NCBI GenBank assembly: GCA_029266735.1
Contig: JAQSWG010000003.1
Location: forward strand, 1-64,000
Length of the DNA stretch: 64,000 nucleotides
DNA from: Ornithinibacter sp.
Lineage (GTDB): Bacteria > Actinomycetota > Actinomycetes > Actinomycetales > Dermatophilaceae
Direction: 5' to 3'
In this document: positions 19,580 through 39,533 of the stretch, one piece after another
Position numbering within the stretch: position 1 is the stretch's first letter
How the letters are laid out: each line of letters opens with the position of its first letter
Notes under the pieces: model-generated
The model's database searches: none
The model's input: the letters and a program-made list of their open reading frames with translations, nothing else
What the model was told of the DNA's origin: nothing
Made by a program: the position numbers and the translations under genes

Positions 19580-20914
19580 TCACACCTGGATCAGGAACGA
19601 CGGCTCGTCGTCGTCGAGCACCCGAACGGTGAGCTCCTCGTGCCGCGCGGCGGCGTTACGGGCCTCGGTCAGCGCCGCCGCCATGGACGAGCGGCGTGAC
19701 TCGCTGGGGGAGCGCTGCTCCGAGCTGGTGAACCAGAACGTGTACGGACCCGCGCCGGGGGGCCGGGTCTCGGTGATGGTCGCGATCACCGAGGGCTCCG
19801 GGTTGTCATGCGCGCCGTCCGCCGAGAAGACGTAGTGGTCAGCGATCACCCGCTCGGCGAACCCCCTGCTGAGGTTGTGGCTCGCGCCGTGGTGCTGGAC
19901 CTTGAGGACCGTGCAGTGGAAGGGTGCGTCACCGCGGTTCCCGCCCAGCTTCCCGACGGCCGTGAGCCCGTCCACGATCTCCTCCTCAGCGGCGTCGCCC
20001 GTCAACAGGACCGAGCGACCGCTCTCCTCGGCCAAGACGGTGATGGATGCCCGGTTGGGCGTCGTCACGTGGCTGGACCCGGCCTTCTCGATGATCTGGG
20101 CCGCCTCCTCGAGGGAGCCGGGCGAGCGGCCGCCGAGCGCGAGGCCTGTGCCGGAACCGGCGCCGTCCCCCGCACGACCTCCCGTGGTCGGCGGAGCGCC
20201 GTCGCGGTTCGTCGCCAGCCGGATTCCCTTCTTTGCGAACCACTCCCGCCACTCGTCGCGCAGGGCGGCCACGTGCTCCTCGGTCGGACCGAGGACGGTG
20301 AGGGTCGTGCTGCCCACTTTCAACCGGTGCGGGCGCTCGCGCAGCAGCACGAGGTGGTTGGGGAAGCCCTTGTTGCGCTCGAGCGGGGTGCGCTCCTCGA
20401 CGAGGCGGGACAGCGCGACCCCGTCGGCGATGCTCTCTGCGAGACCCGAGAGCTCGGTGAGTGCCCGCTGGGTCGACTCCGGTGCTGCCGCCACGAGCCC
20501 CGGGTCGAGCGCCATGGCCTCGGTGACCTGGACGGCCAGCGCGGAGATCGGCCCCTCGAGGTCGTCGACCTGGGCGCGCCACGAGTTGTGCCAGAGCGCT
20601 CCGATGTCCGGCGGTCGGGGCGCCTTGGGTTCGGGAAAGTCGGGGTTCGCGCCGTCCGAGCGCTGGTGGTCGAACACCACCCAGTCGCCGACGTCCCTGA
20701 GCAGGCGGAGGATGCCCGTGATGTGGTCGGCATCGATGTGGCTGACGAGCACGAGGTCGATCACCTCGCCGGCGCGCCCCAGCTGCTGCAGCCGTGGCGA
20801 CGTGTTCTCCGCGAAGGTGCCCGCCCGTCCGCCGTCGACGAGGACGTGGTGGCCGTCAGCGGACGTGAGGAGCATGCAGTCCCCGTCCGCCGCATGGAAG
20901 ACCTCGAGCCTCAT
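19580..20914 (-). CDS. MBL-fold metallohydrolase
   Basis: 444 residues from the ATG at 20914. The opening VFHAADGDCMLLTSADGHHVLVDGG and LVLVSHIDADHITGIL (H59, D61, D63, H64) are the metallo-beta-lactamase metal site with HxDxDH in place of HxHxDH. Later KVQHHGASHN and YVFSADG match strands of ComEC/Rec2-like members. A long central part (about 90-270) with a Gly/Ala linker is non-conserved. It probably hydrolyses a phosphodiester or nucleic acid. It begins 10 bp after the subtilase gene ends on the same strand, so the two form an operon; cytosolic, no signal peptide. Confidence 0.8.
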   Translation of the reverse strand: MRLEVFHAADGDCMLLTSADGHHVLVDGGRAGTFAENTSPRLQQLGRAGEVIDLVLVSHIDADHITGILRLLRDVGDWVVFDHQRSDGANPDFPEPKAPRPPDIGALWHNSWRAQVDDLEGPISALAVQVTEAMALDPGLVAAAPESTQRALTELSGLAESIADGVALSRLVEERTPLERNKGFPNHLVLLRERPHRLKVGSTTLTVLGPTEEHVAALRDEWREWFAKKGIRLATNRDGAPPTTGGRAGDGAGSGTGLALGGRSPGSLEEAAQIIEKAGSSHVTTPNRASITVLAEESGRSVLLTGDAAEEEIVDGLTAVGKLGGNRGDAPFHCTVLKVQHHGASHNLSRGFAERVIADHYVFSADGAHDNPEPSVIATITETRPPGAGPYTFWFTSSEQRSPSESRRSSMAAALTEARNAAARHEELTVRVLDDDEPSFLIQV

Positions 20915-20924
20915 GGCGAGCCGT

Positions 20925-23156
20925 TCACCTCTTTCGTCTGCCGGCCCCGGAAGCCGCTGTGCCGGCTCCGGAGACAGCCTCGAACATCTCGGCGAACTCC
21001 ACGGTGCGGCTGAGACACGCCGGGGCGTCGATGACGCCGAACCCGGTGTCGTTGCGCCATCCAAAGGTCTGCCCGGGCAAAGGAGACGACGTCGATCGCA
21101 TGATCCCCTGGATCTGCGCTGACGTGAGCTGCGGCACGACCGCGAGCATCAAAGCCGCGACACCACAGACGTAGGGACTGGCCATGCTGGTTCCGGTCAT
21201 CTCCACCCAGGGCGACGCCCTGTCGAAGCCGGCAGCAGCGACGACGGCCGTGCCATCCGCCGCGATGTCCGGTTTGCTGCGGCCGTCGCGGGTCGGTCCC
21301 CGGCTCGACGTGACGTGGGCGGCGTTGAGTGAGAGGTCGGCGTTGGCCACCGAGAGAAGCCGTTCGGCACAGGCCAGGGAGCCGATCATCCGATCGTTGG
21401 TGTACGACCCCTCGCTGAACGTGGACGGGTAGTTCCACATGCCGCCGCCCGGGCCCTGCAGGGCCCGGGCGTCGTCGCGCTCGATCCACGCGTCGAACCG
21501 ACCGTCGCGCACCACCACCCCGGTCAGCCGCACCCGCCATTCGCCCGACGTGATCGGCCGCTTCTCCGGGGCCTCGCCCTGGCGGTCCCCGTAGAAGGGG
21601 GAGAGCAGGATGGAGATCCGGTTCAGGCCGTTCGCCGGGTGGTAGGCCTCGGAGTGGATGCTGAGCACCGTCCCGTCGTCGAGAAAGGTGTGCCGGATCG
21701 CCTTGCCGAGGGGCACCGGACCGACCCAGGCGCCGCCGGGCGGCCGCACCTCGACGTCGAAGCGGTCTTGCGGTCCGTACCAGATCTCCATCTCGTTCTC
21801 GGAGAAGTCCGAGATACCCTCGCCGCCCACGAGCCAGCCCAGCTCCTGGCGGAGGTTGGTGGCGGCGAGCACCCCACCGGCATGGATCCTCCCGAGGAGC
21901 AGCCGACGTGGGGAGTCCGTGCCGGCCGTCACCTGGCCCGCGTTCCCCGCCGCGACGCTCACGCACCGGCCACGCGTGGCCAGGGCATTGTCGATCCACC
22001 GAGCCATGGCGCTCGAGGTGTCGTGGGCGTGTCCGTTGGTGCCCAGGCTGATGTTGATCGACAGGGGCAACGGCTTCCCATCACCCAGCCTGTCGGCAAG
22101 GCCGATGAGGTACTCGATGGCGTCGGCGATCCGGGTCGAGTCGTAGAAGCTCGACGCTGCGGCGTCGCCGGCGTTCGGGAGGCTCACCAGCACGCCGGCC
22201 AGGTGGGCCTTCCGGGCGACCCCGCTGTTGCCGGCGGCGATGGAGGCCACGTGGGTCCCGTGCGACCGCGGCGCCATCGTCGACTGGGGCTCGAGTGCGG
22301 TTGCCGCCATCCTCCGTGTCCGAGCAGCGGTGATCGCGGCCTCCATGTGCTCTCGCCGGATCTCGCTGCCGTAGCTCAGCCCGGACGTGGAGCCGGGTCC
22401 CTCAGGCGGGGGCCGGGTGGTCCCACCCTGGTCCCAGATCGCCTCCCACCGAGTGGTTCCGTGGGCGATGAAGTCAGGGTGCGCGAAGTCGAACCCCCCT
22501 ACGTCGATGATGCCGACCAGGACACCCTCACCGTCATGATGCCGGCCGCGTGCCACGGCAACGGAGCGCGCGGTCCGCGGTCGTGGGGCCTGGGTCCGGC
22601 CGATCATCGGATGCGGTTCACGGAGCGACTGCCCAGGCTCGATGTAGGCGATGGCGTCCTCGTGGACGAGGTGTGCGACGTCGGCTGCCGCCATCTCCAC
22701 CGCCGCGGTGTCCAGCTTCCAGCTGACCCGAAGGGCCCTGTCCTCGACGGACTTCTCGACCGCCTTGCGCCGGTCGGGGGCGAGATCCCTGTCGAGCTTG
22801 ATGAACAGGCTGAGCAGCACGTCGGGGGAGGGTTCGGGGTTCCGTTCGCGCTCGGACACCGCCCGGGCCACCGCGCTGAGAGCCATCTCCTTCACGCTGG
22901 CGACGGGTGCAACCCCCTCCGTGGGAAGGCCCGCCTGCTGGATGGCCGCCATGGCCACCTGCGCCGCCTGCGTGGGGTCGCCGACGTCAGGAGGAGCCGC
23001 GCCCGCAGCCGCGTCAGGTCCGCCGACGTCCTCCGATGGCACTGCGAGGGAGGGGCTCTGCTCCGCCCGGCTCCGGTTCACGTCTGCCGTTGCGGACAGG
23101 TAGACGTCCAATCGCGGCGACATCCGGGGGTTGAGGGGCTCGACCTCGGTGCTCAC
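20925..23156 (-). CDS. cytosolic S8 (subtilisin-family) serine peptidase
   Basis: 743 residues from GTG 23156, which follows gaggaggt at ideal spacing. Catalytic triad: D218 (GIIDVGGFD), H299 (RSHGTHVAS) and S657 (TGTSMASPYV), with the oxyanion Asn in VSVAAGNAG. About 350 residues between His and Ser include an inserted beta-rich segment (SDFSENEMEIWYGP to RDGRFDAWIERD). The N-terminal 200 residues are charged and helical with VSWKLDTAAVEMAAADVAHL, like a propeptide-type domain. No Sec signal, so the enzyme should act inside the cell. It is operonic with the MBL hydrolase and divergent from DUF2235. Confidence 0.85.
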   Translation of the reverse strand: MSTEVEPLNPRMSPRLDVYLSATADVNRSRAEQSPSLAVPSEDVGGPDAAAGAAPPDVGDPTQAAQVAMAAIQQAGLPTEGVAPVASVKEMALSAVARAVSERERNPEPSPDVLLSLFIKLDRDLAPDRRKAVEKSVEDRALRVSWKLDTAAVEMAAADVAHLVHEDAIAYIEPGQSLREPHPMIGRTQAPRPRTARSVAVARGRHHDGEGVLVGIIDVGGFDFAHPDFIAHGTTRWEAIWDQGGTTRPPPEGPGSTSGLSYGSEIRREHMEAAITAARTRRMAATALEPQSTMAPRSHGTHVASIAAGNSGVARKAHLAGVLVSLPNAGDAAASSFYDSTRIADAIEYLIGLADRLGDGKPLPLSINISLGTNGHAHDTSSAMARWIDNALATRGRCVSVAAGNAGQVTAGTDSPRRLLLGRIHAGGVLAATNLRQELGWLVGGEGISDFSENEMEIWYGPQDRFDVEVRPPGGAWVGPVPLGKAIRHTFLDDGTVLSIHSEAYHPANGLNRISILLSPFYGDRQGEAPEKRPITSGEWRVRLTGVVVRDGRFDAWIERDDARALQGPGGGMWNYPSTFSEGSYTNDRMIGSLACAERLLSVANADLSLNAAHVTSSRGPTRDGRSKPDIAADGTAVVAAAGFDRASPWVEMTGTSMASPYVCGVAALMLAVVPQLTSAQIQGIMRSTSSPLPGQTFGWRNDTGFGVIDAPACLSRTVEFAEMFEAVSGAGTAASGAGRRKR

Positions 23157-23280
23157 CGCGACCTCCTCGGGACCGGGCGGACGGACCTCGTCCACGGCCG
23201 TGCCTCGGTGGCGTCGCTGACAAAGGCACGGCCCTGGGACGATGATGGACCCAACGGGCCAGCTCGAGCGAGGGGTGCCA

Positions 23281-24327
23281 GTGAAGAACATCGTTCTCTG
23301 CATGGACGGGACCGGGAACCAGGTCCAGGCCAAGGACAGCACCAGCGTCGTGCGACTCTTCACCCTGCTCGACCTGAGTCACCCCGAGGAGCAGATCGCC
23401 TACTACGACCCGGGAGTGGGGACGCTCGGCTCGTCGCGGTCGTGGTCGCCGTGGGGGCAGTCACTCACCAAGGTCCTCGGACTGGGCTTCGGCCTGGGCC
23501 TGCGCGAGAACCTCGGCGAGGCGTACTCCTACCTCATGAGCACCTACGAGGACGGCGACCGCATCTTCATCTTCGGGTTCAGCCGCGGGGCGTACACCGC
23601 TCGGGCACTGTGCGGAATGCTGCTCAAGCTCGGCCTCCTGCGCGACGGTGCACAGAACCTCGTTCCGTATGCCGTGAGCCTGTACACGGGGGACGACGTC
23701 GACTGGAAGCAGCTCGGCCGGTTCGGCGGTGCGATGTCACGCCGGGGGGCCGACGGCCGGATGGGCGTTCGGGTCCATTACCTCGGCCTGTGGGACACGG
23801 TGAAGGCCGCGGGCCTCCTGCGGGGCGGGCTCACCTGGCCCGACACCCGGCAGCTGCCCAACGTGGACCGGATCAGGCATGCCGTGGCCATCGACGAGAA
23901 GCGCCGGCCCTTCGCCGAGTACCTCGTCCACCCCGTGAAGAAGCCACCCAAGAACGCACCCCCCAGAGTGCTCGACGAGGTGTGGTTCGCGGGTGTCCAC
24001 TCCGATGTGGGTGGCACCTTCCCCGACCACGAGCTCTCCGACATCGTCCTCAAGTGGATGGTCGAGGACGCCGTCGAGCACCACCTGAAGGCGACGTCGA
24101 CGGCACTGGCAGAGGCCACCTCGGTGGACCCCGCGAGCGCACTCGGCCAGATCCACCGCATGGGTCGGTCGTGGGCCGTCCTGGGCTTCCGCCGCCGGCA
24201 GGTTCCCGAGGGCGCGTCGGTCCACAGCAGCGTGCGGACGCGCGTGGAGGCCCAACCCGACTATGCGCGAAGGCTGCCCGCCGACGTCACCTGGGTCGAT
24301 GACGCCTGGGTCGAGAAGAGGAGCTGA
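23281..24327 (+). CDS. DUF2235 / Tle1-like alpha-beta hydrolase
   Basis: 348 residues from GTG 23281. KNIVLCMDGTGN opens the domain; FGFSRGAYTAR (98-108) is the nucleophile elbow with S101, YLGLWDTVKA gives D172 and WFAGVHSDVGG gives H240, the Ser-Asp-His triad known from Tle1 phospholipase effectors. No secretion system is visible, and there is no signal peptide or PAAR/VgrG gene nearby. It may act on lipids. It shares a 124-bp divergent region with the S8 peptidase. Confidence 0.85.
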   Translation: MKNIVLCMDGTGNQVQAKDSTSVVRLFTLLDLSHPEEQIAYYDPGVGTLGSSRSWSPWGQSLTKVLGLGFGLGLRENLGEAYSYLMSTYEDGDRIFIFGFSRGAYTARALCGMLLKLGLLRDGAQNLVPYAVSLYTGDDVDWKQLGRFGGAMSRRGADGRMGVRVHYLGLWDTVKAAGLLRGGLTWPDTRQLPNVDRIRHAVAIDEKRRPFAEYLVHPVKKPPKNAPPRVLDEVWFAGVHSDVGGTFPDHELSDIVLKWMVEDAVEHHLKATSTALAEATSVDPASALGQIHRMGRSWAVLGFRRRQVPEGASVHSSVRTRVEAQPDYARRLPADVTWVDDAWVEKRS

Positions 24328-31986: not shown

Positions 31987-33324
31987 ATGAGCCAGATCAG
32001 ACGACGCGTGGCGGTGGCCGCAGCGGCCGCTCTTGCCCTTGGACTCTCCGTCGGGTCCGCGGGCCCGGCGGCAGCTGCTCCCACGGACCCGCCGAGCTAC
32101 GTGAAGTCGTGGCTTGCGCTCGACACGGGCGCCTCGAACACCGTGCGTCTCGTCAATGCCGACAAGACGCTCTCCGGATCCCCACAGGTCCTCAGTGGTG
32201 GCAAGGCGTGCTCGCTGAACGAGGGGGGCGCCGGACTCCTCGACTTCTCGTCGACCCCGGCGTCGCCCGGCGTGGGCTTCTCGGGCGGGGGGATCGGCGT
32301 GCGCGAGAAGACCACGTCGTCGGGCACGTCCTGTGCCGCCGTCGACGCGGCGAAGGCGGAGAGTCTGACGCTGACCCTGGGCAACGGGGTCGGCAGCCTG
32401 GTTGCCATGTCCGCCTCCCTGGATATCGACCTCAAGCAGAGCGCGCGCATCCTCGCCAGCGCGTCACTCAGCACCGACCCGGCCGGCACCCCGCCTGCCC
32501 TCTTCGAGCTCCAGAGTGGCGTCAACATCGGGGCGACTCCCACCGCCGGTGCCACGGTGTTCACCTGCAACAACCCTGCAGACTCCGGTCCGGACAGCGG
32601 CGCCAACAACAACTGTCGGTGGGAGATCAGCGCACCGACGTGGACCCGAGTGTCGGCCGACCCCCTCCAGCCCGGCCTGAGCGAGGACGGCGTCCAGTTC
32701 GACACCCTGACCCTGACCGCGCTGGCCGGCTCCTTCTCGCTCATGGGCGGGGCGGACGGCCCCGTCGCCGACCCCGCGTTCCCCCTGCCGCAGTACCTGG
32801 GGGCCGACCAGGACCCGAACACGAACGACGTGTCCATCGTGGGTGCCTCGATCTTCGAGCTCGTCGAGGGGGAGCTCGACTGCGGCGAGACCGCCACGCT
32901 GAGCGGTCCCATCGCGTCGTCCTGGACGCGACTGCAGGACTTCACGGGTGGCGACTGCCAGCCCTTCCCCTACTCCAGCCGTACGGGCACCGATGACGAG
33001 GGAGCGTTCGCCGAGTTCACCAAGCCGCTGGACTACCAGACCGCGGCACACGCCCTGTGGACGACGACCTTCGTGGTCGGCGCTGGGAACACGATCCCGC
33101 CGATCCGCGTCTACCTGGACCGCGCGGACGGCACCCAGATCGAGTTCAGCCCGCTGGTGGCGTGTCCTGACGAGTACTGGGTCAACGGAGCGTTCGTGGG
33201 GCCGTCGGTCCAGCCGACCGCGCCCACGGCGTGCCTTGTCGACGCAGTGCGGGGATCAGGCAAGCTCAACAAGTCCGTGACCTACACGGCATACATCTAC
33301 GGCGATGCGTTCATGCGCCGCTAG
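31987..33324 (+). CDS. secreted protein of unknown function
   Basis: 445 residues with a classical Sec signal peptide (MSQIRRRVAVAAAAALALGL ... GPAAAAPT) behind ggaggaa. The mature part is beta-rich by composition, with glycine/serine/threonine-rich segments and eight cysteines (GKACSLNEG, GTSCAAV, FTCNNPA, NNCRWE, LDCGET, GDCQPF, VACPDEY, TACLVD) that could form four disulphides. No anchor, LPXTG or enzymatic motif. I do not recognise it; an exported binding or surface protein is the most likely kind. It shares CTAG at its stop with the convergent cyclase gene. Confidence 0.6.
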   Translation: MSQIRRRVAVAAAAALALGLSVGSAGPAAAAPTDPPSYVKSWLALDTGASNTVRLVNADKTLSGSPQVLSGGKACSLNEGGAGLLDFSSTPASPGVGFSGGGIGVREKTTSSGTSCAAVDAAKAESLTLTLGNGVGSLVAMSASLDIDLKQSARILASASLSTDPAGTPPALFELQSGVNIGATPTAGATVFTCNNPADSGPDSGANNNCRWEISAPTWTRVSADPLQPGLSEDGVQFDTLTLTALAGSFSLMGGADGPVADPAFPLPQYLGADQDPNTNDVSIVGASIFELVEGELDCGETATLSGPIASSWTRLQDFTGGDCQPFPYSSRTGTDDEGAFAEFTKPLDYQTAAHALWTTTFVVGAGNTIPPIRVYLDRADGTQIEFSPLVACPDEYWVNGAFVGPSVQPTAPTACLVDAVRGSGKLNKSVTYTAYIYGDAFMRR

Positions 33325-36300
33325 GTTGTCGCGGTGGTGACCTCGTCGTCGGTGTTGCTGACGATCGAGGCGCCCAACGACTGGAGGATCCCCTCCGCGT
33401 CGTCCCAGGCGCGTGCGGCGCCGGTGCCGTCACCCTGGTGTCGTCGCACGCGGCTGAGCACGCGCAGGAGGAGCGCCTCGTCGTAGGGCACCGCGGTCTC
33501 ACGTGCGGCGATGATGCCGGTGCTGATGAGCTCCTCCGCCTCGGCAAAGCGACCCAGAGCGAGCAGTGCCCGGGAGCGCTGGAGGCAGATCCTGGGCATC
33601 GCCGAGGCAGCCTCCGTGCTGGCGGCGCGCTCCGCAGCGTCGAGCCTCTCCAGGGCCTCCTGTGGTCGCCCCTCCCGGATCATCGCGTCGGCCTGGACGA
33701 GCGACGCGTCCAGGGCGCTCGTCGCCTTGTCCAGCTCCAGGAGACGACGGGCGGTGTCGGCAGCCAGTTCCTCGGCGGCGGAGAGCTCGCCACGGAGCAT
33801 CAGGACGCGCGCCATCTGGACCTCACCCTGAGCTATGGACGGCGCGGCACCAGATGCACGCAGGGCCCGTAGCGAGTCGGCGAGTACGACCTCCGCTGCG
33901 GAGATGTCACCTTGGTTGAGGAGGAGCTCGGCGAGGTTGACACCCGTCTCGGCGGCCCCGAAGTCCTTGCCGACCTCGATCGCGACCTCGCGGGCCGTCC
34001 TGTACCACTCGGCGGCCTCGGTCCAGCGGCCAGCGAAGTAGTCCAGCGTCCCCAGATTTCCCCTGACGACCTCCTCGAGCGGCCGGAGGCCTTCGTCGAT
34101 GCAGATCTGGAGCGCCTCGAGGTGTCGCGCCCCGAGGCCCGGAACGCCCATGAAGACCTCCACGGTGTCGAGGAACACCAACGCGAGGACGAGGTGCTCG
34201 GGGTCGCCCGTCGCCCGCGCGCCGGCCGCCGCTCGCTCCGCCCAGACCAACGCCTCCCGTAGGCGCTCCTGATCGACGCGGATGCGCGCGGTGAGGCCGT
34301 CCAGGCGGACGAGCGTGGCCCGCCCGTCATCGCCCAGCCCTTCGAGGAGCCGCCGTGCCCGCCCGACGGCCCGCGTGGCCGCCGCGAGCTGCCCGGTCCG
34401 GGTGTGGACGGTCGCCCGAAGCTCGAGCACCTTCGACCGGCCGAGGGGGTCCTGTCGCAACAGTCGCTCGGCGCGGCGGTAGGCGTCCACGGACTCCTCG
34501 AACATCCCGGCCAGCTCGGCCAGGCCACCGATCCGGGTCCACAGCTGCGCGCGCTCGGTGTCGGTGATCTCCGGCATCCGCCGACTGACGTCGATGGCGT
34601 TCCGGAGGTGTCGTGCCGCGTCGGCATTGGCGTACGAGCGCGCAGCGAGGTCCCCGGCCATCTGGGAGTACCGCCACGTCCGGACAGCATCAGCGGCCCG
34701 CTCGAAGTGCAGGGCGAGCGTTGGGGAGTCGGCGTCGAGGCTGGTGCTGAGCTGTTCGAGCACCTCTCCGGCCGTGCGGTGGATCCGGCTGCGCACCCGG
34801 AAGGCCAACCCTTCGTACGCTGCGTCGCGGACCAGGCTGTTGCGGAACCTCAGTCGATCCGGACCGTCGGGCTCGAGGAACTCGGCCAGCGTGCCGAGCG
34901 TCCCGGCGTCCAGTCCCAGCCCGTCGGCCTTGAGCGTCGCGTCGAGGATCTCGCGCCGGAAGCTCCGGCCGAGGACGGCGCAGTATCGCAGGATGCGCCT
35001 CACGGTCGGAGGCAGCCGGTCGATCTGCCGGGTCATCGCCGCGTTGACGGACTCCGGCAGGGACTCCAAGGATCCCGCCGCCAAGGTCAGCCGGGTGACC
35101 TCTTCGACGAACAGCGGGTTCCCCTCGGCCCTCCTCACCACAGCGGCGATCTCGTGAGAACGCAGCGGAGTCGCCTCAGTGGCCGCGATGACGAGCCGCT
35201 CCACGACCTCGGGCGGGAGAGGGTCGAGATGGATCCGCGTCCCCGTCGCCGGGGCGAACCCCCCGCCCTCGCCGCGGTGCACCGCGATGACCGCCCAGGG
35301 CCGGCCCGTCGCCGCGACGGCCACCCTGTCGAGGAAATGGGCGGAAGCCCCGTCCGCCCAATGCGCGTCCTCCACGAGCATGACCACCCGCTTGGGCAGC
35401 ACGCGAGCGGTCAGTTCGATGAGCGCGTCGGCAACACGGTCGGCCCGGAACTGGGGTTCGATGCGGTCCGCCTCCGGTGTCGCTGGAACGTCCACCTGGG
35501 CGACGTCCGCAAGCAGGGGGGCAAGGGGCAGCAGGTCAGGCGCGGACTCTTCGAGCGTGTCGAGCAGGGCGCGCCCCATCTCCTCCGGCATGCCACCGGG
35601 GATACCGAGCAGCGCCCGGACGGGGTCCCGCAGGACCCGGTAGGCGCTCGACGCACCGTAGGGCTCGGCGCGCAGCACGATCCGGTGGTCGGGTGCAACG
35701 GCCTCCAGCACCTCCTGTGCCAGCCGGGACTTGCCCAGGCCGGTGGCCCCCTCGATCGTCAGCACGCCTCCGGCTCCGCTCAGTGCCTCGTCGACGACCT
35801 GCCGTGCAGCCGCGAGCTCCTCGTCCCTTCCGAGCATCGGCAGCCGGCCCGTCGCCACCGACTCCCGCGTTCCGATCTCCTCTCCGACGGCGTAGACCGC
35901 CAAAGGGACCGACTTGCCCTTCATCGCGAAGGGGCCGGCCGGTGTCACCGCGAACCTCGTGTGCGACTGCTCCAGGACGGTCGGGTGGGCGTGGATGGCA
36001 CCGAGGGGAGCGGTCGACATGATCCGAGCCGCGGTGTTCGTCGTGTCCCCCATGGCGGAATAGGCGGCACGCTCGTCGATGCCGACCTCGGCAGCGAAGA
36101 CGTGGCCCCGGTTCACGCCCAGCTGCAGCGGGAGCGGCAGGCCGGCGTCCGCGATGCGACGCAGCGCCCGTAGCATGCGACCCTCGTCGTCCTCGCTCGC
36201 GACCGGGACACCCGACCCGAGGAAGAACTTGCCGCCGTTGGAGTCGATGTCCGTGGCCAGCAGGGTGACGCCCTCCACGTTGAGCGCCTGCTCGACGCCG

Positions 36301-37121
36301 GTGACGAGCTCGTGCAGCGTGTCGCCGAGGGCCTCGTGCCCCTGCTCGTCGAGGATCGCGTCCGTCCCCGAGAAGCGGACGAACGCGATGGTGGCCACCC
36401 GGTGTTCGGGGTCCGGAGGGCCGGGGGCGAGGTACTGGCCGAGCTCGACCGGAAAGAGCGTTCGGAGCAGGCGGTCGTCCCCCGGAGGTACCGACGGGTC
36501 GGTCGCGGGGCGAGAGTGGACAGCACGGCGACGCAGCAGCAGCTCGCCGTCGGCACGGGGGCGGGTGGACCCGGGTGAGAGACGCGCCGCCGTGGCGGGA
36601 CTCACGACGATCTCTCCGGCGTTCGCGACCTTCTCCGCCTGCGCGGTGGCCGACGCGGCGGGTCCGAGGATGAGGAGCTCTCGCGTCGGCGACCCGACGA
36701 GGAAGAGGGCGACGTCCCCGGAGTGCACCCCGACGGACATGGAGAGGGACAGCCGGCCGACGGACGTCGGGGTTCCGGCAGCCTCCCGCAGGGCCGTTCG
36801 CATTTCGACGGCGGCGTCACAGGCCTGCTGGGGATGGTCGTCCCCGCGGAAGAGGAAGAGGAGTGCGTCCCCACCGAACTTCAGCAGCTCACCGCCGCGG
36901 GTGGCCGAGATGCGCAGCATCGGTCCGAAGACCCGGTTGAGGGTGTCGACGATCTCCTCGGCCCCGATGCGGCCACGACGCGAGAGGCGCTCGGTCAGCG
37001 CCGTGAAGCCCGAGACGTCGGCGAACACGAGCGTTCCGTCGACGACGCGCGACAGCGCACCCGGCACCTCGTCGTCCCAGACGAGCGTGATCGGGGGGAC
37101 GTGTCGACGCAGGTCGGTCAT
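33321..37121 (-). CDS. double adenylate/guanylate-cyclase-domain AAA-TPR signalling protein
   Basis: 1266 residues. Cyclase domain 1 (about 30-180): LVFADVSGFTALTERLSRRG with D35, and LLKFGGDALLFLF with D85, the two metal-binding Asp. Domain 2 (about 230-390) is degenerate (FVRFSGTDAILDEQGHE, SNGGKFFLGSG) but AYSAMGDTTNTAARIM is retained. An AAA ATPase follows (GATGLGKS, about 456-463; LVEDAHWAD), then a long TPR region to the C-terminus (about 850-1240). The layout is that of class III nucleotide cyclase-MalT/LuxR-like STAND proteins, without a LuxR HTH. It probably makes cAMP when the sensor part is triggered. The divergent start faces the MBL gene across 115 bp. Confidence 0.85.
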   Translation of the reverse strand: MTDLRRHVPPITLVWDDEVPGALSRVVDGTLVFADVSGFTALTERLSRRGRIGAEEIVDTLNRVFGPMLRISATRGGELLKFGGDALLFLFRGDDHPQQACDAAVEMRTALREAAGTPTSVGRLSLSMSVGVHSGDVALFLVGSPTRELLILGPAASATAQAEKVANAGEIVVSPATAARLSPGSTRPRADGELLLRRRAVHSRPATDPSVPPGDDRLLRTLFPVELGQYLAPGPPDPEHRVATIAFVRFSGTDAILDEQGHEALGDTLHELVTGVEQALNVEGVTLLATDIDSNGGKFFLGSGVPVASEDDEGRMLRALRRIADAGLPLPLQLGVNRGHVFAAEVGIDERAAYSAMGDTTNTAARIMSTAPLGAIHAHPTVLEQSHTRFAVTPAGPFAMKGKSVPLAVYAVGEEIGTRESVATGRLPMLGRDEELAAARQVVDEALSGAGGVLTIEGATGLGKSRLAQEVLEAVAPDHRIVLRAEPYGASSAYRVLRDPVRALLGIPGGMPEEMGRALLDTLEESAPDLLPLAPLLADVAQVDVPATPEADRIEPQFRADRVADALIELTARVLPKRVVMLVEDAHWADGASAHFLDRVAVAATGRPWAVIAVHRGEGGGFAPATGTRIHLDPLPPEVVERLVIAATEATPLRSHEIAAVVRRAEGNPLFVEEVTRLTLAAGSLESLPESVNAAMTRQIDRLPPTVRRILRYCAVLGRSFRREILDATLKADGLGLDAGTLGTLAEFLEPDGPDRLRFRNSLVRDAAYEGLAFRVRSRIHRTAGEVLEQLSTSLDADSPTLALHFERAADAVRTWRYSQMAGDLAARSYANADAARHLRNAIDVSRRMPEITDTERAQLWTRIGGLAELAGMFEESVDAYRRAERLLRQDPLGRSKVLELRATVHTRTGQLAAATRAVGRARRLLEGLGDDGRATLVRLDGLTARIRVDQERLREALVWAERAAAGARATGDPEHLVLALVFLDTVEVFMGVPGLGARHLEALQICIDEGLRPLEEVVRGNLGTLDYFAGRWTEAAEWYRTAREVAIEVGKDFGAAETGVNLAELLLNQGDISAAEVVLADSLRALRASGAAPSIAQGEVQMARVLMLRGELSAAEELAADTARRLLELDKATSALDASLVQADAMIREGRPQEALERLDAAERAASTEAASAMPRICLQRSRALLALGRFAEAEELISTGIIAARETAVPYDEALLLRVLSRVRRHQGDGTGAARAWDDAEGILQSLGASIVSNTDDEVTTATT

Positions 37122-37236
37122 CGGGTCGGGGTCACCTTGGCCATTTCACGGAGGGGGTGTACCGGGATCTGTAGACTCCCACACGCTCCCGTGTCGGGAA
37201 GACGGATCCGCCGTCGTCGGGTGCACTAGGAGGCTC

Positions 37237-38106
37237 GTGCGCGTCGTCTTCCTCGGTGTCCGCGGCTCTGTGTGCGCCCCAGGTCGCGAGTTCGTCCGGT
37301 ACGGCGGCAACACGTCGTGTCTCGCCCTGTCCAGCGGCCCGGATGCCGCCCCGACGCTGCTCCTCGACGCCGGCACCGGCATCCGCACCGTGACGGGCAT
37401 GCTCGGCGGGAAGCCATTCCGGGGCACCATCCTCGTCAGCCACGTCCACTGGGACCACGTGCAGGGGCTGCCCTTCTTCTCCGCGGGGGACCGGGCCGGC
37501 GCCAAGGTGGTCTTCCTCGTCCCCGCCCAGGGCGGGAAGTCCGGCCGTGACCTCGTGGCCCAGATGATGTCTCCGCCGGCGTTCCCGATCACTCCCGAAG
37601 GGCTCATCGGCGACTGGACGTTCCATGCCGTGCAGCCCGGCCACGTCGTGGTGCCCGACTTCGAGGTCCGCGCGTTCGAGGTCGCCCACAAGGGCGGGCG
37701 AACTTTCGGGTACACCGTGCGGCAGGGCGGCGGCTCGATCGGCTACGTGCCCGACCACGCGCCGGAGCTCGGCGTCTCCGCCGACGCCCTCGAAGCGCTG
37801 GCCGGCGTCGACGCCCTCATTCACGACGCCCAGTTCCTCGAGCACGAGCGGCCCCGGGCGGTCGACTACGGTCACGCCACCGTCGACGACGCCCTCCGGC
37901 TCGCGGACCGCGTGGGTGCCGCCTCGCTCGTCCTGTTCCACCACAGCCCGCACCGCGTCGACGAGGCACTCGACACCATCGGGGCCGACGCGGCAGCGAA
38001 GGCCACGATTCCCGTGCTCGTCGCGGCCGAGGGACAGGCCCTGGACCTCGAGGGAGCGCCGCCGATGGACAGGCCCCTTCCTGAGGTCACCAACGCCCTG
38101 CCCTAG
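37237..38106 (+). CDS. MBL-fold hydrolase (GVRGS / GGNTSC type), possible cyclic nucleotide phosphodiesterase
   Basis: 289 residues from GTG 37237, behind aggagg. VVFLGVRGSVCAPGREFV with RYGGNTSCLAL is the N-terminal signature of a widespread MBL group near signalling genes; LVSHVHWDHVQGLPFF is the HxHxDH metal site; the DHAPE and HHSPHR segments are further ligands. Some MBL-fold hydrolases of this superfamily degrade cAMP; that role here is inferred from the neighbouring cyclase, cNMP-binding protein and metallophosphoesterase, not from a diagnostic residue. A tRNase Z-like or other phosphodiesterase is an alternative. Confidence 0.75.
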   Translation: MRVVFLGVRGSVCAPGREFVRYGGNTSCLALSSGPDAAPTLLLDAGTGIRTVTGMLGGKPFRGTILVSHVHWDHVQGLPFFSAGDRAGAKVVFLVPAQGGKSGRDLVAQMMSPPAFPITPEGLIGDWTFHAVQPGHVVVPDFEVRAFEVAHKGGRTFGYTVRQGGGSIGYVPDHAPELGVSADALEALAGVDALIHDAQFLEHERPRAVDYGHATVDDALRLADRVGAASLVLFHHSPHRVDEALDTIGADAAAKATIPVLVAAEGQALDLEGAPPMDRPLPEVTNALP

Positions 38107-38109
38107 AGT
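38104..38109 (+). promoter_or_regulatory. -10 box of a leaderless transcript (metallophosphoesterase)
   Basis: TAGAGT, overlapping the MBL stop codon, 7 nt before GTG 38117. Confidence 0.4.
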
Positions 38110-38116
38110 CGTCCGG

Positions 38117-38875
38117 GTGCGGATCCTCTCGGTCTCGGACCTGCACTACCGGCTCCCGCACTACGACTGGCTGGTGAAGGCCGCACAGGACCCCGGCATC
38201 GACGTCGTCGTGCTGGCAGGTGACCTCGCCGACGTCGTGAGCCCCGTGCCGATCGACGTGCAGGCGGTGGTCCTGGACTCCTACCTGCGGAGGCTGTCCG
38301 ACCACGCGCTCGTGCTCGCCTCGTCGGGCAACCACGACCTCGACGGTCCCGGAGACAGCGGCGAGCAGGTGGCGGCCTGGCTGCGTCGCGTCGACGCGGA
38401 CCGGGTGCTGGTGGACGGCGCGTCGACCGATGTCGACGGGGTTCGGTTCACCGTGTGCCCCTGGTGGGACGGTCCCGCCACCCGCGCAGACGTGGACGCC
38501 CAGCTGGCGGATGCCGCCGTCGGCCGTCCTGACCTGTGGGTGTGGATCTACCACTCGCCGCCGGCCGGGACCCCGCTCTGCCGCGACGGCCGCCGTGAGT
38601 TCCCGGACCACGACCTCGCCGCGTGGATCGACGAGCACCAACCCGACATCGTCATCTGCGGCCACATCCACCAGGCGCCGTGGGCGAAGGGCGGTTCCTG
38701 GCACGCCCGGCTGGGCCGAACCCTCGTCCTCAACGCCGGGAAGCAGATCGGTCACGTCCCGCCGCACATCACCATCGACACCGCTGCGCTCACCGCCCAC
38801 TGGTTCGGCGTCTTCGATTCCGAGACGATCGACCTGCTCCCTGACGTCGAGGCGATCGACCTCGCCGGACAGTGA
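38117..38875 (+). CDS. metallophosphoesterase (class III phosphodiesterase-like)
   Basis: 252 residues. ILSVSDLHYR, VVLAGDLADV, SSGNHDLDG and VICGHIHQAPWAKGG are the five-block calcineurin-type metal site in order (D-x-H, GD, GNHD, H in the WIYHSPP segment, GHxH). The same fold includes class III cyclic nucleotide phosphodiesterases (CpdA/Rv0805). It starts 10 bp after the MBL gene with its own -10 box. A nuclease or protein phosphatase role is possible; context points to cyclic nucleotides. Confidence 0.8.
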   Translation: MRILSVSDLHYRLPHYDWLVKAAQDPGIDVVVLAGDLADVVSPVPIDVQAVVLDSYLRRLSDHALVLASSGNHDLDGPGDSGEQVAAWLRRVDADRVLVDGASTDVDGVRFTVCPWWDGPATRADVDAQLADAAVGRPDLWVWIYHSPPAGTPLCRDGRREFPDHDLAAWIDEHQPDIVICGHIHQAPWAKGGSWHARLGRTLVLNAGKQIGHVPPHITIDTAALTAHWFGVFDSETIDLLPDVEAIDLAGQ

Positions 38876-38892
38876 GACCGGGATGGGCCTGC

Positions 38893-39375
38893 TCAGTGCA
38901 CCTCGGGGTCCCGCGCGGACCCGGGACGAGGCCGTGGGGCCTGATGGTGGACCAGTGAGTGCAGGATGCCGTCCACCATCGCCAGGTGGTCGTCGCGTCC
39001 GGCGAACTGGTTCTTGACGTCGACGAGGTACTGGGTGAGGCCGTCCAGTCGAGCGGCGGTCATCTCGAGGACGGCGAGCGCCGCGCCCGGCCGCCCACCG
39101 AAGAACGCGCCCGGGTCGTCGACGACGCGGACCACGACGTCCGTGCCGGCTCGGGCGGTGGCCGTCGCGGACCTGTCGAGGATCCAGGACATCTCGCCGA
39201 AGACCGCGCCCGGGAAGTCCACCCGAGCGAACGGCGTGCCGTCCCGCTCGACGGTGACCATGCCGGAAACGAGGACGAGCATCCGCGAAGGCGCCGCCCC
39301 CTCCGAGATGAGGACCGAACCTGCCGGGAACTGCTCGACGGGCAGGTCCGAGGTGAGGGCCAGCATGTCGGTCAC
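38893..39375 (-). CDS. stand-alone cyclic-nucleotide-binding protein
   Basis: 160 residues from GTG 39375. FPAGSVLISEGAAPSRMLVL and FPGAVFGEMSWILDRSATAT form a cNMP-binding domain with an intact phosphate-binding cassette: E61, R68 and S69. There is no CRP helix-turn-helix and no catalytic partner domain, so it is a binding module alone (about 90-160 is helical). It converges on the metallophosphoesterase with 17 bp between. It probably passes a cyclic nucleotide signal to a protein partner. Confidence 0.8.
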   Translation of the reverse strand: MTDMLALTSDLPVEQFPAGSVLISEGAAPSRMLVLVSGMVTVERDGTPFARVDFPGAVFGEMSWILDRSATATARAGTDVVVRVVDDPGAFFGGRPGAALAVLEMTAARLDGLTQYLVDVKNQFAGRDDHLAMVDGILHSLVHHQAPRPRPGSARDPEVH

Positions 39376-39533
39376 GGGTCCATTATGACGACGAAGTCGG
39401 CACCCCAGACCACGGCCACGAGGACGGCGAGGGCGACGTCGCGGGCCGGCACCTCCCGATCCTCGCGCGGTCGGCCATGCCCTCGTGGACCGTTTCACGG
39501 TCGCGGGACCCGTGCCCGTGGTTCGCTGTGGTC

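Follow-up and report, generated by a model that had tools for sequence, protein, structure and literature searches.

The window analysed here, 64,000 nucleotides (nt) of an Ornithinibacter sp. genome (GenBank assembly GCA_029266735.1, contig JAQSWG010000003.1, positions 1 to 64,000), contains four adjacent genes that encode a class III cyclase with AAA and TPR regions, a metallo-beta-lactamase (MBL)-fold hydrolase, a calcineurin-like metallophosphoesterase (MPE) and a bare cyclic nucleotide-binding domain (CNBD) protein. Rather than a single unit that is conserved as a whole, these genes make up two modules that lie side by side. Module A consists of the cyclase/AAA/TPR protein and the divergently encoded MBL hydrolase, and module B of the MPE and the bare CNBD protein. 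What would surprise a specialist is module B: its receptor and MPE genes stay paired across several phyla, the enzyme site is intact, and the receptor lacks the arginine of the phosphate-binding cassette, with which well-studied CNBDs grip a cyclic nucleotide; this raises the questions of what the CNBD binds and whether it switches the MPE. The reading that we favour, with a confidence that stays a little short of even, is that a device for making and destroying a cyclic nucleotide is joined here to a CNBD-switched phosphoesterase. A preceding sequence-only reading had suggested that the four genes form a self-contained sensing circuit; as an observation it is partly confirmed, and its circuit interpretation is partly supported.

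A receptor and phosphoesterase gene pair in several phyla

When 84,980 species genomes were scanned with a CNBD alignment, 151 loci emerged, the best 80 of which (L089-L168) were taken. In these loci, fetched by CNBD alone, an MPE gene adjoins the CNBD gene in 78 of the 80. The two genes are convergent (tail to tail) in 76 of these pairs and on the same strand in two, and in 74 of the 78 the distance between them lies between -72 nt (overlap) and +62 nt (gap). In L107, one of the two loci where no MPE is seen, the contig stops about 190 nt beyond the CNBD gene. Judged by their titles, the loci belong to Actinomycetota, Alphaproteobacteria, Verrucomicrobiota, Binatia and a "Deltaproteobacteria" metagenome-assembled genome. 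The 80 loci are not independent because 25 of them are from Bradyrhizobium; apart from the pair genes, the largest clusters of neighbouring genes span 15 and 13 loci, for the most part from Bradyrhizobium. The association also emerges from the side of the enzyme: the MPE family is present in 11 of 394 genomes of the class, and a CNBD gene is adjacent in all nine MPE loci fetched. In a sample of 396 genomes of the phylum, where only the best six or nine first-look candidates per genome were scored, the MPE family (E up to 1e-25) and the CNBD family (E up to 1e-20) are found in the same three genomes, the window's included, and the genes are adjacent and convergent. One genome in which the MPE gene is split over two contigs (G107) was left out of the examination of pairs, L089 and L097 were excluded before the non-redundant set was made, and the fragmentary L163 was excluded from one further comparison.

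Class III phosphodiesterases carry the di-metal motifs DxH, GD, GNH(D/E), H and GHxH. The corresponding motifs DxH, GD, GNHD, H146 and GHxH are present in all 78 MPE sequences compared (the window's and 77 others; L097 was excluded from the metal-ligand columns because its reading frame overran). The AlphaFold model of the MPE (pLDDT 95) adopts a calcineurin-like fold. Sequence searches of solved structures detect a weak match to SbcD only, and comparison of folds identifies aq_1956 with a Z score of 22.7 (3.0 Å over 215 residues) and Rv0805 (2hyo) with 19.4 (2.7 Å over 195 residues); the score of Rv0805 is level with those of Mre11 and purple acid phosphatase, and TT1561 and GpdQ also score high, which leaves the fold comparison without a pointer to the substrate.

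The sequence-only reading had credited the bare CNBD protein with an intact phosphate-binding cassette made up of E61, R68 and S69. The glutamate stands: E61, like G60, R109, Y116 and L117, is invariant in all 81 family members (the window's and those of the 80 loci). R68 and S69, however, are out of register, given that gapless alignments to PKG domains place the phosphate-binding arginine opposite A70. In this column, which is absent from the genome-scan patterns for the family, histidine is found in 47 of the 81 members, alanine in 21, cysteine in 7, proline in 3, tyrosine in 2, isoleucine in 1 and arginine in none, so that an intact cassette through R68/S69 is ruled out. The residue is alanine in the window and in all 19 actinobacterial loci and histidine in most of the alphaproteobacterial ones. 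The bare CNBD proteins of L080-L088 and L230 also lack the arginine (eight of these ten are not already counted, since L080 duplicates L102 and L082 duplicates L098), and that of L229 reads A at this position when aligned by eye from its start. The AlphaFold model (pLDDT 88) is CRP-like, with a long helix (96-123) after the beta roll and another at 130-143. The claim that the receptor has no DNA-binding or catalytic domain holds, in that neither Pfam nor the predicted model reveals one; in particular, there is no Pfam match to a helix-turn-helix, and the model closes with a helix of 14 residues and a tail predicted at low confidence.

As the cassette arginine is absent, ordinary cAMP or cGMP binding by the bare CNBD protein cannot be assumed, and the missing residue points either to a ligand that is not a canonical 3',5'-cyclic nucleotide or to another way of holding one. 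The sequence-only reading had left the output of the receptor unknown; given that the constant partner of the CNBD protein is the MPE and not the cyclase, the MPE is the better candidate. We consider it a tentative possibility, with chances clearly below even, that the bare CNBD protein and the MPE constitute an undescribed receptor-enzyme system present in multiple phyla, in which the receptor would have lost its grip on the cyclic phosphate, would respond to another nucleotide-like ligand and would serve as a separate regulatory subunit, with the genes placed tail to tail and their 3' ends often overlapping. Among the open-licence literature matches listed, no title or opening of an abstract describes the CNBD-MPE pair or its neighbourhood. 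In the accessible text of PMC4886424, CNBD genes are predicted to be partners of a different cyclase-like family; metallophosphoesterases and beta-lactamase-fold proteins are not mentioned there.

In Nostocoides sp. F2B08 (L063:9072-12757), a second copy of the bare CNBD gene, without an MPE, is divergent from a gene for a response regulator/thioredoxin-reductase-like fusion, which is followed by a gene for a CNBD histidine kinase-like protein (names assigned by eye). At L229:3697-6907, the pair is followed by a gene for a glutaminase-like protein with a CNBD that does have the cassette arginine.

The cyclase and the MBL hydrolase

The cyclase protein contains tandem cyclase domains (C1 and C2), a P-loop ATPase (residues ~430-600) and a TPR region, a layout like that of soluble adenylyl cyclase (sAC), and its best solved relatives are ADCY10 structures. 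In such enzymes, two aspartates in C1 bind metal and an asparagine and an arginine in C2 stabilise the transition state. D35 and D85, which the sequence-only reading had described as intact, are kept along with N362 and R366 in every one of five cyclase sequences aligned (that of the window and four others), and the C2 asparagine and arginine align to those of solved bacterial cyclases. Cyclase activity is plausible. The residues that would select the base are different. S355 falls opposite an aspartate of solved bacterial cyclases that we take to be the base-specifying residue, and Ala160 opposite an sAC arginine that presumably belongs to the bicarbonate site. At the C2 position where we assume sAC to have its base-selecting lysine, the window protein and its nearest relatives have N or D, with the K displaced or missing.

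A predicted exported protein is encoded convergently with the 3' end of the cyclase gene in the window and in L062, L064, L065, L084, L105, L184, L194 and L195. These exported proteins are alike only within subgroups; the cyclase clade was drawn by eye, and other cyclase types were not counted.

The MBL protein scores 76.2 bits against PF12706 and carries the motif S68-H-V-H-W-D-H74 together with the ligands H151, D197, H213 and H235; the eight metal-site residues of the family are kept in 23 of 23 sequences (the window's and 22 others). Atypical class-II phosphodiesterases, such as Rv1339, CpdA of C. glutamicum and YhfI of B. subtilis, are defined by the motif [T/S]HXHXDH, according to the accessible part of PMC9293780. 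A gene closer to this type is present elsewhere in the window genome (C51, 214 bits to NF041851, also below the cut-off); therefore, the MBL protein of the window would be a second, locus-linked enzyme.

The family is found in 45 of the 394 genomes of the class, including the window's. From the 44 other matching genomes, 20 loci spread over genera were chosen before the neighbours were seen; several are truncated by contig ends. The controls were 20 stretches (340 kb) at arbitrary round coordinates in genomes with an MBL or MPE match. A CNBD protein is encoded near the MBL gene in 16 of the 20 loci, a class III cyclase in 11, and one or the other in 19 (L185 is the single locus with neither), compared to none of the 20 controls; in 18 of the 20 loci, the CNBD or cyclase gene lies within three genes of the called MBL gene. 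The CNBD partners are varied and include fusions to major facilitator superfamily transporters (MFS-CNBD), small CNBD proteins and CNBD proteins of 320-358 residues encoded 5' of the MBL gene. All 18 CNBD domains of these loci have the cassette arginine. The association with class III cyclases and CNBD receptors makes a circuit that makes, senses and destroys a cyclic nucleotide a good reading of module A, and this part of the earlier circuit proposal is retained; as a four-gene unit, and with an intact cassette in the bare CNBD protein, it is not. More generally, the MBL neighbourhoods suggest a dedicated phosphodiesterase for many actinobacterial CNBD proteins, including the MFS-CNBD fusions and the partners of response-regulator cyclases.

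In L189, L190, L192 and L197, a response-regulator cyclase gene is divergent from the gene for a 320-358-residue CNBD protein, and the MBL gene comes next; in L190, L192 and L197 the CNBD and MBL genes overlap by 4 nt. This arrangement is a candidate further cyclase/receptor/phosphodiesterase set; its CNBD-MBL part is present in L191 as well, where the MBL gene was detected by genome search only.

A possible link between the modules

According to the favoured reading, the AAA/TPR part of the cyclase protein would sense a signal and switch the C1/C2 cyclase, and the divergently encoded MBL protein would hydrolyse the 3',5'-cyclic nucleotide product as a dedicated atypical class-II phosphodiesterase. 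The CNBD outputs of module A would be interchangeable. The bare CNBD protein would be a detached dimeric regulatory subunit, a CRP sensor lacking its helix-turn-helix. In the simplest mechanism, it would bind a ligand of nucleotide type in a non-canonical pocket and, through contact with the neighbouring MPE, switch this output enzyme of module B. Module B would have been placed under module A in some Actinomycetota, most pair loci having neither module A gene nearby.

Among 57 other relatives searched, the divergent cyclase-MBL pair is found only in G004 and G023 and the MPE-CNBD pair only in G023, where the two modules are on different contigs. The four genes thus do not occur together in any of these relatives, the conservation expected of the sequence-only proposal is not seen, and a four-gene unit conserved by descent is rejected. 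In G004, the slot reads thiolase, FabG, MaoC, exported protein, cyclase, MBL and, further on, thrS, and the place taken by the MPE-CNBD pair in the window is occupied by an MFS-CNBD gene, a receptor swap relative to the window. The stretch from MaoC to thrS in G003, a genome of the same genus, contains neither module. In G001 (ThrS 97%), a different gene, DMT-transporter-like by eye, lies beside APH, and similarity to the window stops at 39385, where the contig ends, so that the remainder of the slot lies outside it; the G002 contig stops before the slot. The gene calls, made by a custom script, missed the MBL gene in G004 and L191 and overran the G004 cyclase gene.

Farther afield, module A and module B genes do occur close together. 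In L084, from another family, a stretch of 8.2 kb encodes a cyclase, an MFS-CNBD protein, a small CNBD protein, the MBL, a bare CNBD protein and the MPE; the MBL and bare CNBD genes overlap by 4 nt (the script put a false reading frame over the MPE gene, which was taken from tblastn). In L087, the CNBD, MPE and cyclase genes are co-directional with gaps of 11 and 44 nt. In L103 (Acidimicrobiaceae), the genes on one strand encode a SulP-like CNBD protein, the MBL, STAS-like and RsbW-like proteins (names assigned by eye), a further CNBD protein and the MPE.

The STAS-like and RsbW-like small proteins at L103:9307-14518, whose genes are flanked by the MBL gene and that of a CNBD protein, are a hint of a partner-switching output.

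Several observations count against the joining of the modules or against parts of the mechanism. Whole-genome searches of the three genomes of the same genus (G001-G003) detect no orthologue of the MBL, the MPE, the bare CNBD protein or the cyclase. Among 86 pair loci with called genes, a cyclase gene is near the pair in four (L084, L087, L089 and L105) and a gene of the MBL family in two (L084 and L103); a weak MBL relative (31%) in L147 comes from tblastn. L094 holds a second CNBD copy that lacks an MPE, the pair being present elsewhere in its genome, and no CNBD-MPE fusion is found among the proteins called. The cyclase is unusual at the residues that specify the base, and the fold comparison singles out no cyclic-nucleotide phosphodiesterase as the nearest relative of the MPE. 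In favour of a link, the MBL family is present in 8 of the 11 MPE-bearing genomes compared to 45 of 394 overall (hypergeometric P 2e-6, the window included and ancestry uncorrected), an excess that may reflect shared ancestry.

Some of these results would fit functionally independent modules that are neighbours by chance, with the cyclase and the MBL hydrolase using other CNBD receptors, such as MFS-CNBD proteins, and the CNBD-MPE pair being unrelated to them. The separate contigs in G023, the MFS-CNBD gene in the G004 slot, the pair loci that mostly lack both cyclase and MBL genes, and the presence in the window genome of MFS-CNBD proteins with the cassette arginine are all compatible with independence. 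However, cyclase and/or MBL genes recur near the pair in L084, L087, L089, L103, L105 and the window, as opposed to none of the 20 controls, and, given the excess of genomes with both families as well, we regard independence as rather unlikely.

The simple circuit of the sequence-only reading, in which cAMP or cGMP from the cyclase is bound by the bare CNBD protein as an ordinary receptor and the signal is reset by both the MBL and the MPE hydrolase, accounts for the adjacency of all four genes in the window. It also draws on the two hydrolase folds: Rv0805, of the MPE fold, is a cyclic-nucleotide phosphodiesterase, and the MBL fold includes known enzymes of this activity of the Rv1339 type (accessible part of PMC9293780). 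This explanation is improbable nonetheless, in view of the lack of the cassette arginine throughout the receptor family and of a constant pair that consists of receptor and MPE, mostly with no cyclase nearby.

Pycsar anti-phage systems combine a pyrimidine cyclase with a CNBD effector that has a TIR or membrane domain. PADLOC reports weak matches of the cyclase to PycC (E 4.9e-14), of the CNBD protein to Pycsar effectors (best E 3.2e-6) and of the MPE to PDC-S10 (E 2.1e-11), but any class III cyclase, CNBD or MPE would be expected to give matches of this kind. None of the four proteins has a TIR or membrane effector domain, the locus occupies the thiolase-to-thrS slot that is shared with G004, and tblastn with the MPE of the window gives no match at E 1e-5 among 72,556 plasmid records. 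A Pycsar-like defence function is accordingly rejected as extremely improbable.

Gene layout and comparison with known systems

All four open reading frames (ORFs) reported by the sequence-only reading are real, each with a Pfam match above the cut-off: Guanylate_cyc (two stretches), AAA_16 and TPR_12 in the cyclase protein, Lactamase_B_2 in the MBL protein, Metallophos in the MPE and cNMP_binding in the CNBD protein. The locus lies between a thiolase/FabG/MaoC run and thrS. The MPE gene has an alternative in-frame GTG start at 38108, which would reduce the gap to the MBL stop codon from 10 nt to 1 nt. The bare CNBD gene, tail to tail with the MPE gene, has a GTG start and an ATG at 39366.

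Features of the cyclase-MBL and MPE-CNBD locus in the window
Feature	Position	Strand	Remarks
Predicted exported protein, 445 aa	31987-33324	+	Convergent with the cyclase gene, 4-nt overlap; recurrent neighbour of the cyclase clade
Cyclase/AAA/TPR protein, 1266 aa	33321-37121	-	PF00211 (twice), PF13191, PF13424
C2 cyclase homology domain	~35910-36395	-	
C1 cyclase homology domain	~36540-37034	-	
Divergent intergenic region, cyclase/MBL	37122-37236		GGAGG-type ribosome site just 5' of the MBL GTG
MBL-fold hydrolase, 289 aa	37237-38106	+	PF12706
Calcineurin-like MPE, 252 aa	38117-38875	+	PF00149
Bare CNBD (CRP-like sensor) protein, 160 aa	38893-39375	-	PF00027

Elsewhere in the window, at 19580-24327, an ORF that we take from the look of its sequence to be MBL-like lies beside a 756-aa ORF and is followed, after a short gap, by an opposite-strand ORF that we presume to be DUF2235-like.

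The cyclase protein shares with ADCY10 and the bacterial CHD-CHD-ATPase-TPR cyclases the tandem C1-C2 domains, the P-loop ATPase, the TPR region, the metal-binding aspartates of C1 and the asparagine and arginine of C2; it differs from sAC in having Ala160 in place of the arginine, and the sAC-type base lysine is displaced or missing in its clade. The MBL protein resembles the atypical class-II phosphodiesterases in the PF12706 domain, the [T/S]HXHXDH motif and the conserved aspartate, here D197 (accessible part of PMC9293780), but scores only 35.7 bits against NF041851, for which the cut-off is 400. The MPE has the calcineurin-like fold and the full di-metal ligand set of class III phosphodiesterases such as Rv0805, whereas its fold match to Rv0805 has a lower Z score than that to aq_1956.

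Like the CRP/GlxR-type cAMP receptors, the bare CNBD protein combines a CNBD with a long helix, but it has neither the helix-turn-helix nor the cassette arginine. A parallel for the receptor comes from the regulatory subunits of trypanosomatid PKA, as far as the accessible text of PMC10959531 describes them. Their second determinant, a glutamate at the position of A202 of PKA, is missing here, where the residue is S63 (S in 69 and A in 12 of the 81 family members), and a nucleoside pocket of the trypanosomatid type is therefore not supported. What the two have in common is the replacement of the cassette arginine, and the nucleoside-binding CNB domains of the trypanosomatid proteins show that a change of ligand is possible in this fold (PMC10959531).

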